NCBI GenBank assembly: GCA_030272155.1
Contig: CP126196.1
Coordinates: forward strand, 2,542,001-2,606,000
DNA length: 64,000 nucleotides
Direction of reading: 5' to 3'
From: Tetradesmus obliquus
Taxonomy: Eukaryota; Chlorophyta; Chlorophyceae; Sphaeropleales; Scenedesmaceae
The notes beneath the pieces are model-generated. The model ran no database searches, was not told where the DNA came from, and saw only the letters and a list, made by a program, of their open reading frames with translations. The translations under genes and the position numbers were made by a program. Below are positions 21,984-64,000 of the stretch, piece after piece; position 1 is the first letter of the stretch, and every line of letters begins with the position of its first letter.

Positions 21984-23210
21984 ATGGCGTCCCACCTGAG
22001 CCGGCATCTGCGAAAGATGACGAAGCAGGTGCCCAGCTACGCCTGCCATCGAGTGGGTGCCTCCGAATCCATCACAGTGCAGCTCAACCCCTGCACCCCG
22101 CGCATGTACACACCCACACCTCAGTGCACAGCACTGCTCAACTCCCTCAGCGACTGCACACTATCACAACTGGAAGCCCAGTTCGAAGCCTTTGCAGCGC
22201 GCATGGGCAGCAGCGGCCTCAGCCAGCACTTTTCAACACTGGAAGACTTCCTGAGCGCTGTGCCGCAGCTGCAGCAGCGTCAAACAGCAGCACCAGCAGC
22301 AGCAGCAGCAGCGGACCCCTGGCCAGCTCAAGTTACTGTGGAGCCGGTTCCAGAGCGTCACAGGGGCTACAGCAGCCTTGCAGCAGCACTGCAGATGCCG
22401 CAGCTGACATGCGTGCGCGCAGCTACATCTTTCAATGCGGGCGATGCCATAGGCCCGTACTACAGCCTCGTCATGCCCACAGACATGCACAGTGTCCTGT
22501 ACCTGGCAGCAGATGATGCGAAGCTCTCAAAACAGCAAGTTTGTGTGGAGCTCGGCACGCAGCGCATCACTTTTGATGCCAGCTGCTGCGTGGAAGGCAG
22601 GCACAACAAGCTGGCAAGCCTGCTGGATTATCGCTGCATCACGCCGGCTGGCGTGCACAATGCAAAGAGGGACGTGGCAGGCGGCGCGAATGCGGCATTC
22701 TTGAGCTATGTTGACAGGGTGGGGCGGCCCTGGCTGTTTGTGGTGGCGCTCAGGAGCATTGCAGAGGGAGAGGTGCGGCTTGCGGCTTGCGGGTGGCGCT
22801 TGCTTTTGACTGAACTCAAGCGGCATGCTGATTGCTTCGCATGAAGCTGAGCAGGATGACGTGTTGCCTGCCCAGTGCATTAGTGCAGCTGTGGTCCCAT
22901 TATTAATCATTTGCAGCTTGCTGCTTTGCTTATGTCGGCATGCGCTGCTTGATGCTTTGGGTGTGATGACCTTGCATCATCCGCTGATAACGATTTGACG
23001 CAAGGCTAGCATGTTCATACCTTTCATGCTGAGACCTCAACCCTGCACAGAAAAGCTCATCTCTGTACAGAGCAGCAAACGTGCTGCTGCCCGCCGTTGT
23101 TCACGTCCTGCAGAAGGTGTGCCTGGAGTACTGCAAGAGATATGAGCCCATGGGCAACAAACCTTGAACCTCGCACAAATCAAGCGTGTTCAAACCCCAA
23201 ACCAGCCTGG

Positions 23211-23260
<50 letters not shown>

Positions 23261-24537
23261 GCAGGAGGTTTGTGTGGAGTACTGCAAGAACATTCAAGTT
23301 CATAGCCGAGCTTAAAACCACAACCACCTGTATTGCTGCTGCGCCCCCGCAGGAGGGGTGTGTGTGGAGTACTGCAAGAACATCGAGGCAGCTGTGCAGC
23401 CACCAGCACCACCAGCAACCTTTGATGCTATACACTTGTCCCTGTGCTGCTGCCCACACAATTCCAACCTGCAGGAGTTGTGCCTGGAATACTGCAAAAA
23501 AGATGAGCCAGAAGCTATTGGAACCAATCTTTGCACTCACAAAGCAATATCAACCACACACCAGCCTGTGTTGCTGCTGCTGCTGCTGCTGTCTACGCCT
23601 GCAGGAGGTGTGTGTGGAGTACTGCAAGAACATCGAAGCGCTGTGCAGCCACCAGCACCACCAGCACGTGGGCAAGAAGCAGCTGCTGACCCAACTCGCC
23701 CCCAACATGAGCCGCCTGCAGGGCGCCATGCTTGAAGTGCAAGGCGCAATTGCCGGCCTGCTGCAGCTGCAGCAGCAGCTGTCGCCTGGGTCGCTGCTGC
23801 CAAAGCCTCCTGGGGTTCTGAAGGCGCAGCCGTTTGAAGATTTGCAGGAAGCCCAGCAGCAGCTGATTGCTGCAGTGCCAGCAGCAGGGGCAGGGGGAGC
23901 TACCCTTTCCCAGCAGCCCTTTTTCATGCAGCACAGCACTGCAGCACAGCAGCAGCAGTTTGGGCTGCAGCAGGTCAAGCCAAGGCCAGGGCAGCTGCGG
24001 CCGGGCTACGTTGAGTTACTCAACCAGCAGGCAGGCAACAATAACAAGCGGTATGCAGGAGCGCTCGGCGCTGGCAGCAGTGTGGCTGCACTCGCAGCTC
24101 CCTTCAGCACAGGGAGCAGCAGCAGCCTGCAAGCACAACCCTTCAGCAAGCAGCAGCAGCAGCAGCTGCGAGAGGAGGCTGCTCGGCAGCTGCTGCAGCA
24201 GCCGGCGTGCTGGATGCCTGAGCAGCTGCTGAGCGGCTTGCTGGATGTGAGCCTGCAGGTGAGCTCATTTAGCAAGAGTACTTGTCCAACAAGCAAATGC
24301 CTTGAACTGTTCAAACGTTTTGAAGCAGTGACAGCCAGTCGGCTTCCTTTGATTTAAAAATTTGATTTAAAATTTCAAATTCTGTCTGCAGGTGGCTCAG
24401 CTGCAGGAGCTGGTGCCTTCTGTAACACCTGGCAGTCATGACAGCTTCATGGAGGCTGCAGCAGCAGCTCAGATTGCCTCTCCTAAAGCATCGGACAGGT
24501 CAGCAGACAAGTCCCCATCATCACCAGGAGCCGCGGC

Positions 24538-63560: not shown

Positions 63561-63593
<33 letters not shown>

Positions 63594-64000
63594 CTTTGTA
63601 ACATCACTGGGTTTTTCGCTGGTGCTGCTGCTGGTGCTGCTGCAGACGGAGCTGACTGCTTACGAGAAGTTTGCGGAGCCGCGCGAGGTGGACGTGCTGC
63701 GGGTGATCCCCAACAAGAAGGAGATGGGCACAGCCTTCAAGAAGGTGCGGCGGTGGTTGCAGACACATATGGTCAGTGGTGGTGGTCGAGTTGTTGGTGA
63801 GGTCTCAGACGTGTAAGCGTGCGGCACAACAAGAAGGAGATGGGCACAGCCTTCAAGAAGGTGCGGCGGTGGCGCTGCACCGAACGAATTGGTCGTCGGC
63901 TGCTTTGGCTGCTGCAGTGTGCGGGGGCGCGGCATTTAAAATCACTGTCACTGCGCAGGTGTTGGTTGCACATCGAAGACGGCGCGTTCTCTGGTCTGTT
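56745..64000 (+). CDS. Glycyl-tRNA synthetase, eukaryotic dimeric type, with WHEP domain (3' end outside window)
   Basis: It attaches glycine to tRNA-Gly. The start is in a perfect GCCACCATGG context. Exons in phase: 56745-56910, 57785-57975, 58510-58578, 59081-59239, 60391-60585, 61283-61420, 61757-61859, 62433-62612, 63272-63378, 63646-63744; 469 residues so far, of about 650-700 expected. Exon 1 and the start of exon 2 encode a WHEP helix-turn-helix ([11 protein letters not shown]). The catalytic core follows: [25 protein letters not shown], motif 1 with [36 protein letters not shown] with PETAQGIFVNF, motif 2 [58 protein letters not shown], and [18 protein letters not shown]. All are diagnostic. 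No transit peptide is seen, so the cytosolic form is likely. Nearly every intron contains exon-edge copies, more than in any other gene here. Confidence 0.96.
57524..57712 (+). repeat. Copies of the 5' edge of GlyRS exon 2
   Basis: The exon start [20 protein letters not shown] (57785) recurs at 57632-57712 nearly unchanged and open in frame. A shorter remnant ([15 protein letters not shown]) is at 57524-57553. Confidence 0.93.
58830..59003 (+). repeat. Two copies of the 5' edge of GlyRS exon 4
   Basis: [18 protein letters not shown] (exon at 59081) recurs at 58830-58886 and 58950-59003, each after a GCAG acceptor. After the copied part the sequences differ but share a TACTACACC-like stretch. 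Confidence 0.95.
59331..59555 (+). repeat. Two copies of the 3' edge of GlyRS exon 4
   Basis: [20 protein letters not shown] and following codons (59160-59239) recur at 59331-59410 (almost identical, with a GTGCGG donor) and 59482-59555 (more diverged). Confidence 0.95.
59629..60320 (+). repeat. Four copies of the 5' edge of GlyRS exon 5
   Basis: [20 protein letters not shown] (exon at 60391) is preceded by copies beginning 59629, 59794, 60012 and 60239. The unit is about 150-225 bp. Adjacent copies also share the intron end (CTGCTATGAACCCTGCAG), so complete intron-exon units were duplicated. The first and fourth copies are the most decayed (stop or frame change). Confidence 0.95.
60689..60951 (+). 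repeat. Two copies of the 3' edge of GlyRS exon 5
   Basis: [20 protein letters not shown] and the PETAQ donor end (60500-60585) recur at 60689-60774 and 60867-60951. The unit is about 180 bp and includes shared intron sequence (TGAGCGCTGTGAGCTGTTAT). Confidence 0.96.
61501..61563 (+). repeat. CAG run plus copy of the 3' edge of GlyRS exon 6
   Basis: [11 protein letters not shown] (61388-61420) recurs at 61529-61563, just after a CAG run. Confidence 0.9.
61672..62101 (+). repeat. Edge copies on both sides of GlyRS exon 7
   Basis: An upstream copy at 61672-61708 matches the exon segment [13 protein letters not shown] downstream copy at 62055-62101 matches the exon end [13 protein letters not shown] with donor. 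The exon is 61757-61859. Confidence 0.88.
62687..62835 (+). repeat. Two copies of the 3' edge of GlyRS exon 8
   Basis: [14 protein letters not shown] with donor (62570-62612) recurs at 62687-62728 and 62791-62835. Confidence 0.95.
62985..63250 (+). repeat. Three copies of the 5' edge of GlyRS exon 9 in 95-bp units
   Basis: EDCWDAEVQ (exon at 63272) is preceded by copies near 62985, 63073 and 63168. Each lies behind a (CTG)n-CGCAG acceptor and is followed by the same TGCTTTCCTTGCTATGTACT-like intron sequence. The unit length is about 95 bp. Confidence 0.95.
63828..63866 (+). repeat. Copy of the 3' edge of GlyRS exon 10
   Basis: [15 protein letters not shown] (63711-63755) recurs at 63828-63872 with no visible change in its core, again followed by a G-rich donor-like site. 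Confidence 0.93.

Follow-up and report, generated by a model that had tools for sequence, protein, structure and literature searches.

Background

Tandem duplication is an accepted source of introns, and the review in which this is stated covers the AGGT model of intron gain by tandem duplication (Gao and Lynch; Hellsten) (PMC3443670). In a potato RdRp gene, a tandem duplication has been described that runs from the 3' end of an intron into the start of the following exon, with the duplicated splice signals inherited, and another, of 83 bp, is present in the first intron (PMC4974935). New introns in Daphnia contain internal direct repeats, which have been ascribed to repeated staggered breaks and passive lengthening (PMC4202315), and in mouse and human cells the fill-in of breaks with 3' overhangs by CST and Pol alpha-primase leads to small tandem duplications (PMC8355091). 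Here I describe a related pattern in the green alga Tetradesmus obliquus, namely diverged copies of exon edges that lie, with the splice site, in the intron next to the exon. They were noticed in a stretch of 64,000 bp (the window; assembly GCA_030272155.1, contig CP126196.1, C6:2542001-2606000), which includes a glycyl-tRNA synthetase (GlyRS) gene, and they recur in samples of the whole genome.

The potato duplication resembles those of the alga in that it crosses an exon-intron border and carries splice signals with it. It differs in being a single case, with a new intron and a new exon supported by RNA (PMC4974935), whereas in the alga the copies, with 30-110 bp of exon, were absorbed into existing introns at 48 exon sides. 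The AGGT model likewise has a local tandem duplication that supplies splice sites and intron sequence, but it needs an exonic AGGT segment and makes a new intron, where in the alga an existing intron grows (PMC3443670). The GlyRS copies, each of which holds one exon edge and its splice site, sit in introns between exons fixed by homology and do not derive from a wholly exonic segment. Daphnia also shows repeats in introns and lengthening, but its exon-adjacent repeats measure 4-12 bp, against 30-110 bp of exon edge plus splice site at a spacing of about 120 bp in the alga (PMC4202315). The fill-in by CST and Pol alpha-primase, like the process proposed below, yields small duplications at the DNA level without long homology; unlike it, it is not linked to splice sites in the passages of that paper considered here (PMC8355091). 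Single border-crossing duplications are known, and no description of genome-wide exon-edge copying was found in the open-licence literature, searched by titles and the starts of abstracts; this is weak evidence of absence, and the rate reported here was measured in one genome.

Distribution of the copies

The genome sample consisted of twenty 10-kb stretches of the assembly (104,662,953 bases in 17 contigs), nineteen of them at fixed coordinates on the 17 contigs and one adjoining the window; triplet repeats were masked in most scans. These 200 kb contain 167 direct but only 4 inverted pairs closer than 1 kb, with at least one direct pair in 16 of the 20 stretches, and at a looser threshold 264 kb gave 236 direct versus 21 inverted pairs. 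For ungapped matches of 30 bases, counted over 264 kb, every 10-bp lag bin between 100 and 139 bp contains 22-31, and the six bins tested at 600 bp and above contain 0-2 each. The spacing peaks at 110-130 bp with a second rise at 240-270 bp, and ranges over about 80-200 bp with multiples. BLAST suppresses near-diagonal matches, but the dip below 80 bp is not caused by this, because it also appears in the ungapped scan, made without BLAST; repeats of short period, at 10-60 bp, are still present there at a low level.

In order to compare exon edges with introns, I matched 60-base edges against 600 bp of flank, with the flanks of other loci as control. Edges were taken only from exons to which a gene finder, after retraining with the nine GlyRS exons, gave a score of at least 20; 145 of the 179 such exons were kept, those shorter than 120 bp or less than 600 bp from a sequence end being dropped. 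At a score of at least 50, the 5' edge matches the upstream intron in 18 of 144 cases (control 5/1152) and the 3' edge the downstream intron in 27 of 143 (control 2/1144), whereas matches in the wrong direction stay at the control level (5' edge downstream 1/144, control 4/1152; 3' edge upstream 1/143, control 1/1144). The middles of exons also match above control (downstream 6/145, upstream 3/145; 0/1160 in each control), which is to be expected of copies that extend 60-110 bp into exons 120-200 bp long. The first-pass annotation of the window had proposed this very comparison, with mismatched pairs as control, and had placed copies of 5' edges upstream and copies of 3' edges downstream of their exons; run on 21 sequences, the comparison gives rates above control, and that geometry holds in the genome sample. 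Four additional stretches, chosen at random before reading as a further test set, hold 14 exons. Matches in the right directions number 1/14 and 2/14, those in either wrong direction 0/14, and those in each control 0/280; this set is small but agrees, and its spacing counts are too few to show the peak.

The direct/inverted ratio, the lag bins and the edge-versus-intron controls exclude a chance origin of the copies, and exon-edge copying characterises the genome and is not peculiar to this window. Altogether 135 exon-flank matches were obtained, of which 86 lie at an edge, 77 of these within 2 bp of it. Edge copies of exons scoring at least 20 occur in 11 of 22 groups (the 20 loci and the two halves of the window), and the copied part of the exon has a median of 54 bp (5-95% range 32-108). 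An analysis of nearest copies, with one copy per exon side, covered the 48 sides with copies in the sample.

That the copies result from faulty assembly, or belong to a dispersed element such as an introner, is scarcely credible. Local repeats are a classic assembly hazard, but these copies are mostly 5-20% diverged and unlike each other, and contig C1 of the assembly starts with CCCTAAA telomere repeats. The window has 57.1% G+C; a published table lists T. obliquus with a genome of 108 Mb, 57% G+C and introns that average 462 bp, more than in any other of the five green algae tabulated (PMC5966456). Introners would place similar sequence in many genes, whereas among the 21 sequences only 12 cross-locus matches were found, and two spacers searched against the genome (window positions 63745-63826 and 61421-61760) have no other source there except the known copy of GlyRS exon E. 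Mobile spacers, which had been considered separately, were rejected for lack of another origin of these two regions. Of 38 spacers, 15 have a direct match less than 3 kb away, 3 an inverted one and 3 a match in another locus.

To call such copying a general rule, as the annotation did, is too strong. Searches of the whole genome with Pfam profiles, made without a gene model, found, on my reading of the match tables, copies at 2 of 9 HSP70 loci (a tenth, with a weak single match, was set aside) and at 3 of 11 chaperonin loci; these searches score best candidates only, and copies can be missed. On the minus strand of C17, HSP70 profile positions 159-224 are preceded by 158-182 and 159-182, and positions 315-374 by 314-341. 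On C13 (C13:4749798-4750450), positions 370-432 are preceded by 370-404, 369-404 and 370-400 at a regular step of 156-157 bp. On C16, three partial copies precede chaperonin positions 40-101, and behind positions 325-376 stand three or four copies with ends at 375-396. Such arrays were also read at the DNA level, in locus L029.

Within the window, self-comparison finds 56 direct pairs at distances below 2 kb, all of them within 23,082-63,872 and none in the first 23 kb, an Ala/Gln-rich gene region. Copies were found at 0 of 24 tested predicted exons in 1-23 kb against 12 of 23 in 23-64 kb, exon prediction being possibly poor in the Ala/Gln-rich part. A looser scan finds 31 families with at least 41 extra copies, which is an undercount, as middle copies such as those at 58946, 60685 and 62684 merge; with this in mind, the more than 45 copies announced earlier are about right. 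One of the 31 families (29880-30097) is a 28-bp minisatellite and not an exon copy; about five copies of its unit stand at 29880-30028, without a predicted exon.

The GlyRS gene

Eight GlyRS exons were fixed by frame-by-frame homology to solved GlyRS structures in the PDB (the third frame gave nothing). Their boundaries were set by hand, with splice sites and reading phase consistent along the whole series. The ninth, exon I, is assigned from its open frame and splice sites and lies outside the PDB alignments shown. Copies of exon starts with an acceptor stand upstream of four of the nine exons (A, C, D and H, with 1, 2, 4 and 3 copies, respectively), and copies of exon ends with a donor downstream of six (C, D, E, F, G and I, with 2, 2, 1, 1, 2 and 1; Table 1). 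The copy of exon A differs from its exon by seven synonymous and no nonsynonymous changes. The four upstream copies of exon D all start directly after TGCAG, at spacings of about 162, 218, 233 and 151 bp, and by eye two types of intron alternate between them, so that several events are needed. At the copy of exon I, the adjoining intron is unalignable past 12 bp.

Table 1. Exons, exon-edge copies and related features of the window (positions in the window)
Feature	Position	Strand	Evidence or remark
GlyRS exon A	57785..57975	+	PDB homology, sequence boundaries, translation
5'-edge copy of exon A	57627..57713	+	91% identical, spacing 151 bp
GlyRS exon B	58510..58578	+	PDB homology; no copy detected
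GlyRS exon C	59081..59239	+	PDB homology
5'-edge copy of exon C	58824..58882	+	97%, spacing 253
5'-edge copy of exon C	58946..59003	+	92%, spacing 131
3'-edge copy of exon C with donor	59333..59410	+	94%, spacing 171
Second 3'-edge copy of exon C, more diverged	59475..59520	+	Self-comparison
GlyRS exon D	60391..60585	+	PDB homology
5'-edge copy 1 of exon D, in-frame TAG	59622..59681	+	
5'-edge copy 2 of exon D	59784..59843	+	
5'-edge copy 3 of exon D	60002..60061	+	
5'-edge copy 4 of exon D, 1-bp insertion	60235..60291	+	
3'-edge copy 1 of exon D with donor	60685..60774	+	
3'-edge copy 2 of exon D with donor	60867..60956	+	
GlyRS exon E	61283..61420	+	PDB homology
3'-edge copy of exon E, GC in place of the donor GT	61530..61567	+	
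GlyRS exon F	61757..61859	+	PDB homology
3'-edge copy of exon F	62053..62104	+	Self-comparison
GlyRS exon G	62433..62612	+	PDB homology
3'-edge copy 1 of exon G	62684..62730	+	
3'-edge copy 2 of exon G	62792..62853	+	
GlyRS exon H	63272..63378	+	PDB homology
Three 5'-edge copies of exon H, array in steps of about 90-100 bp	62958..63196	+	Tandem Repeats Finder (TRF), self-comparison
GlyRS exon I	63646..63744	+	Open frame, splice sites
3'-edge copy of exon I	63827..63872	+	46 bp 100% identical, spacing 116
3'-edge array, ARM-repeat gene, 4 copies including exon	24704..25581	+	Arm match
5'-edge copy of predicted exon 27779-28213	27614..27698	+	
Pair 33897-33944 / 34020-34067 at predicted exon	33897..34067	+	
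Four edge-copy families, unnamed gene	39714-40081, 40183-40534, 40933-41132, 41290-41635	+	Exons predicted only
Edge copies, nucleotidyltransferase-like gene	47863-47952, 48362-48458, 48691-48734 (span 47863..48860)	-	
Edge copies, predicted exons of alginate-lyase-like gene	51896-52130, 52359-52720, 52943-53204	+	

The retrained finder recovered most of the GlyRS exons, but placed the start of exon A 11 bases too late and that of exon F 121 bases too early. Some of the copies are still called as exons by it, and CAG is still abundant in its acceptor matrix. This is a warning for gene finding, as intact-looking edges with splice sites inside introns can be called as exons. A version self-trained from long open frames drifted to CAG-repeat 'acceptors', called exons everywhere and was discarded; CTG/CAG runs are frequent directly upstream of predicted acceptors genome-wide, and they misled this self-training.

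Fate of the copies

Between exon and copy, the differences per site amount to 0.057 at the first codon position, 0.044 at the second and 0.153 at the third (86 copies); between copies they are 0.110, 0.097 and 0.175, respectively. This pattern fits an exon under constraint beside a copy almost free of it, although some excess at third positions remains. A function of the copies, as parts of alternative or mutually exclusive exons or as decoy splice sites under selection, could be read from the third-position differences, which are 2.8-3.8 times those at the first and second positions, from several copies that differ only synonymously, and from the in-frame stops (1/69 against 5.0 expected, 95% range 1-9, a borderline deficit). 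I nevertheless regard it as very improbable, as by simple reasoning an unconstrained copy next to a constrained exon already gives an about two-fold third-position excess, and between copies the third-position ratio is just 1.7. The splice dinucleotides are kept at about the neutral rate, in 67 of 77 copies (AG 29/32, GT 38/45), where 0.91 is expected from positions 1 and 2 and 0.85 of the dinucleotides within copies are identical. The spacing shows no frame bias (14/17/17 modulo 3, p = 0.83), and among 15 indels in the 86 copies 14 shift the frame and one is a multiple of 3. Coding constraint on the copies, suggested by the third-position excess, was rejected, being opposed by the comparison between copies and by the decay of splice sites.

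Tandem or mutually exclusive exons comprise a whole exon with both splice sites and an intact frame, and what is found here are fragments with the median length given above. With their unbiased spacing, frame-shifting indels and neutrally retained splice sites, these exon fragments do not bear out the suggestion that they are raw material for such exons. The copies decay roughly neutrally and give no good sign of function.

Origin of the copies

The explanation that I favour, and consider rather likely, is that frequent tandem duplications of about 120 bp across exon-intron borders, reshuffled at least once by unequal exchange, lengthen introns. The duplications would be DNA-level events of break repair or replication, and fill-in at breaks with 3' overhangs is known to give rise to small tandem duplications (PMC8355091). 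Across a border they would be tolerated, the splice site being duplicated with the exon edge: the mRNA would be unchanged because the outer copy, with its own splice site, can be skipped. Duplications inside exons would presumably be removed by selection. The copy adjoining the exon body stays exon and the other, within the intron, decays roughly neutrally; at least one array owes a hybrid copy to unequal exchange inside the copied exon edge. The net result would be longer introns without new function.

The copies fit the short tandem duplications across exon-intron borders that were proposed from the window. Young full-length duplications include intron, as in locus L021 (196 bp at 100%), and two tandem copies that both span the border, the potato type, are clear in the young cases L021 (100%) and L018. 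Intron growth is borne out too, introns with edge copies being longer than others (median 706 versus 396 bp; n = 34 and 96, p = 0.0012), and copy coverage falls to 0-0.009 beyond 140 bp inside exons. The microhomology that CTGCAG acceptors and CAG|GTG donors were suggested to offer is not supported: at the inner boundary the core TGCAG occurs in 3/48 cases versus 9% of control exons and the core AGGT in 3/48 versus 4%, and only GCTG is mildly raised (0.48 versus 0.31).

Several observations weigh against the favoured explanation. The annotation had stated that intron sequence is shared too, and this is so for 29 of the 77 copies, whereas in the remaining 48 the adjoining intron is not significantly similar. 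Nine neutral simulations predict similarity on the intron side in 85-93% of the copies whose exonic part is at least 91% identical, and it is observed in 18 of 53; among sole copies at a spacing below 200 bp it is seen in 4 of 15. Similarity is 0.93 in the first 10 exon bases and 0.69 at intron bases 6-10 (control 0.52). Border-crossing duplication leaves unexplained that the exonic half is about 92% identical in most copies and the intronic half often unalignable, and equally the size class of about 120 bp and the patchiness from gene to gene. Too many families also touch an edge: 47 of 65 duplication families in 110 introns (64 kb) between exons scoring at least 20, against 20 +/- 3.4 when the 64 placeable families are placed at random, and against 37-60% in 12 simulations with detection bias, where slower visible decay of exon copies gave 36-43% and introns of 300 bp gave 51-60%. 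Finally, the exons in the sample come mostly from a home-made gene finder and not from RNA.

Alternatively, copying might be anchored at the splice junction, an edge bounded by the splice site being placed in the intron at a distance of about 75 bp, through template switching, for instance, or through repair coupled to transcription and splicing. Such a route would explain why similarity is lost abruptly at the splice site, why the intron side is unalignable in most copies although these have diverged no further in their exonic parts than the copies whose intron can be aligned, the excess of edge-touching families, and the two searched spacers that have no other source apart from the known exon-E copy. 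I consider it unlikely, since even intron sides that individually lack significance resemble each other more than controls do (five tests, p 2e-5 to 5e-3), and outward similarity of at least 30 bp, found in 36/77 copies versus about 13/77 expected from other loci, is broadly spread and not cut at one place. Furthermore, the young full-length duplications contain intron, and in locus L029 about 35-40 bp are common, by eye, to all five donor-side tails. A strict form, with intron-free copying of 'heads only', was suggested at first, was later weakened by the spread similarity and by L029, and is kept as a rival. It is likewise doubtful that a lineage-specific mutational process which recognises splice junctions, and copies the edge, severed at the splice site or close to it, to a place in the intron about 75 bp away, built a sizeable part of the intron length by acting repeatedly; if true, it would mean that DNA change is coupled to splicing or to the chromatin of exon borders.

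Part of the mismatch with border-crossing duplication may lie in the history of the arrays. The middle copy of L018 is a hybrid: its inner side has the variant of the older copy, whereas its outer side agrees with the exon in sequence and intron. In L029 the exon's upstream intron is, by eye, common to the second copy and not to the nearest one. Multi-step arrays shuffle intronic parts, which softens the mismatch with simple tandem duplication, as do the likeness of the weak intron sides and the spread of outward similarity described above. What remains would be explained either by gene conversion by the exon, which is possible, the L018 hybrid being one clear product of exchange, or by copying cut at the splice site.

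A wholly ordinary account would have random tandem duplications of about 120 bp fall in once very short introns (about 150-200 bp), where most had to touch an exon, with later exchange and deletion shuffling the intronic parts. The 51-60% edge families at random placement in 300-bp introns go some way towards this, and introns of 150-200 bp, outside the simulated range, could raise the expectation further. The shuffled intronic tails in exon D, L018 and L029 also agree with it, as does the absence of a coverage peak at the edges (0.148-0.154 in the first 60 exon bases, 0.115-0.171 in the 450 preceding intron bases). I nonetheless find it improbable, as sides with a single copy mostly lack similarity in the intron, and just 18 intron-only families occur in the 64 kb of introns, of which at least two touch GlyRS exons scored too low by the finder (61814, 62859). 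A preference for exon borders is possible, perhaps likely, and not proved. Exons with copies have a stronger coding bias (0.167 versus 0.145 per base, p = 0.0035).

The causes of intron growth and the material for it are mostly inferred from relics too old to read; here the material is legible. Roughly extrapolated from the 167 direct pairs at close range in 200 kb, sampled mostly at fixed positions, the genome would hold tens of thousands of pairs, and many pairs carry a built-in clock because the exon is constrained and the copy is not. In one genome it would become possible to measure how often borders are duplicated, how fast spare splice sites decay and how often near repeats exchange sequence.

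Other genes and repeats

Of the gene names given to the window by the annotation, GlyRS is upheld by structure homology, and ARM and malate dehydrogenase by Pfam matches above the family cut-off; the nucleotidyltransferase (called a TUTase) and the alginate lyase match only below the Pfam cut-off. No SET domain was found by Pfam in the ARM gene, of which two of three frames were scanned, and the supposed binding protein (39714..41635) has no Pfam match in three frames. The pair at 33897..34067 directly precedes the malate dehydrogenase domain matches (34.8-36.5 kb).

Compared with minisatellites, the arrays are mixed: the HSP70 array on C13 and an array in locus L023 are regular, the steps at exon D are unequal, and 30 of the 48 exon sides have a single copy. 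The array in L023 (182-879) consists of a predicted exon end followed by six copies in steps of 88-89 bp and is the largest one-sided array in the sample. At L007 (1-1130), about six copies of a 191-bp unit, 91% alike, stand without a predicted exon. In L019, self-similar sequence covers 59% of the 10 kb at large spacings unlike those of the other loci, perhaps a different type of repeat. A perfect direct repeat of 138 bp occurs at 2123-2260 and 4206-4343 of the window, 2.08 kb apart, with a partial inverted copy (83%) at 54941-55002.

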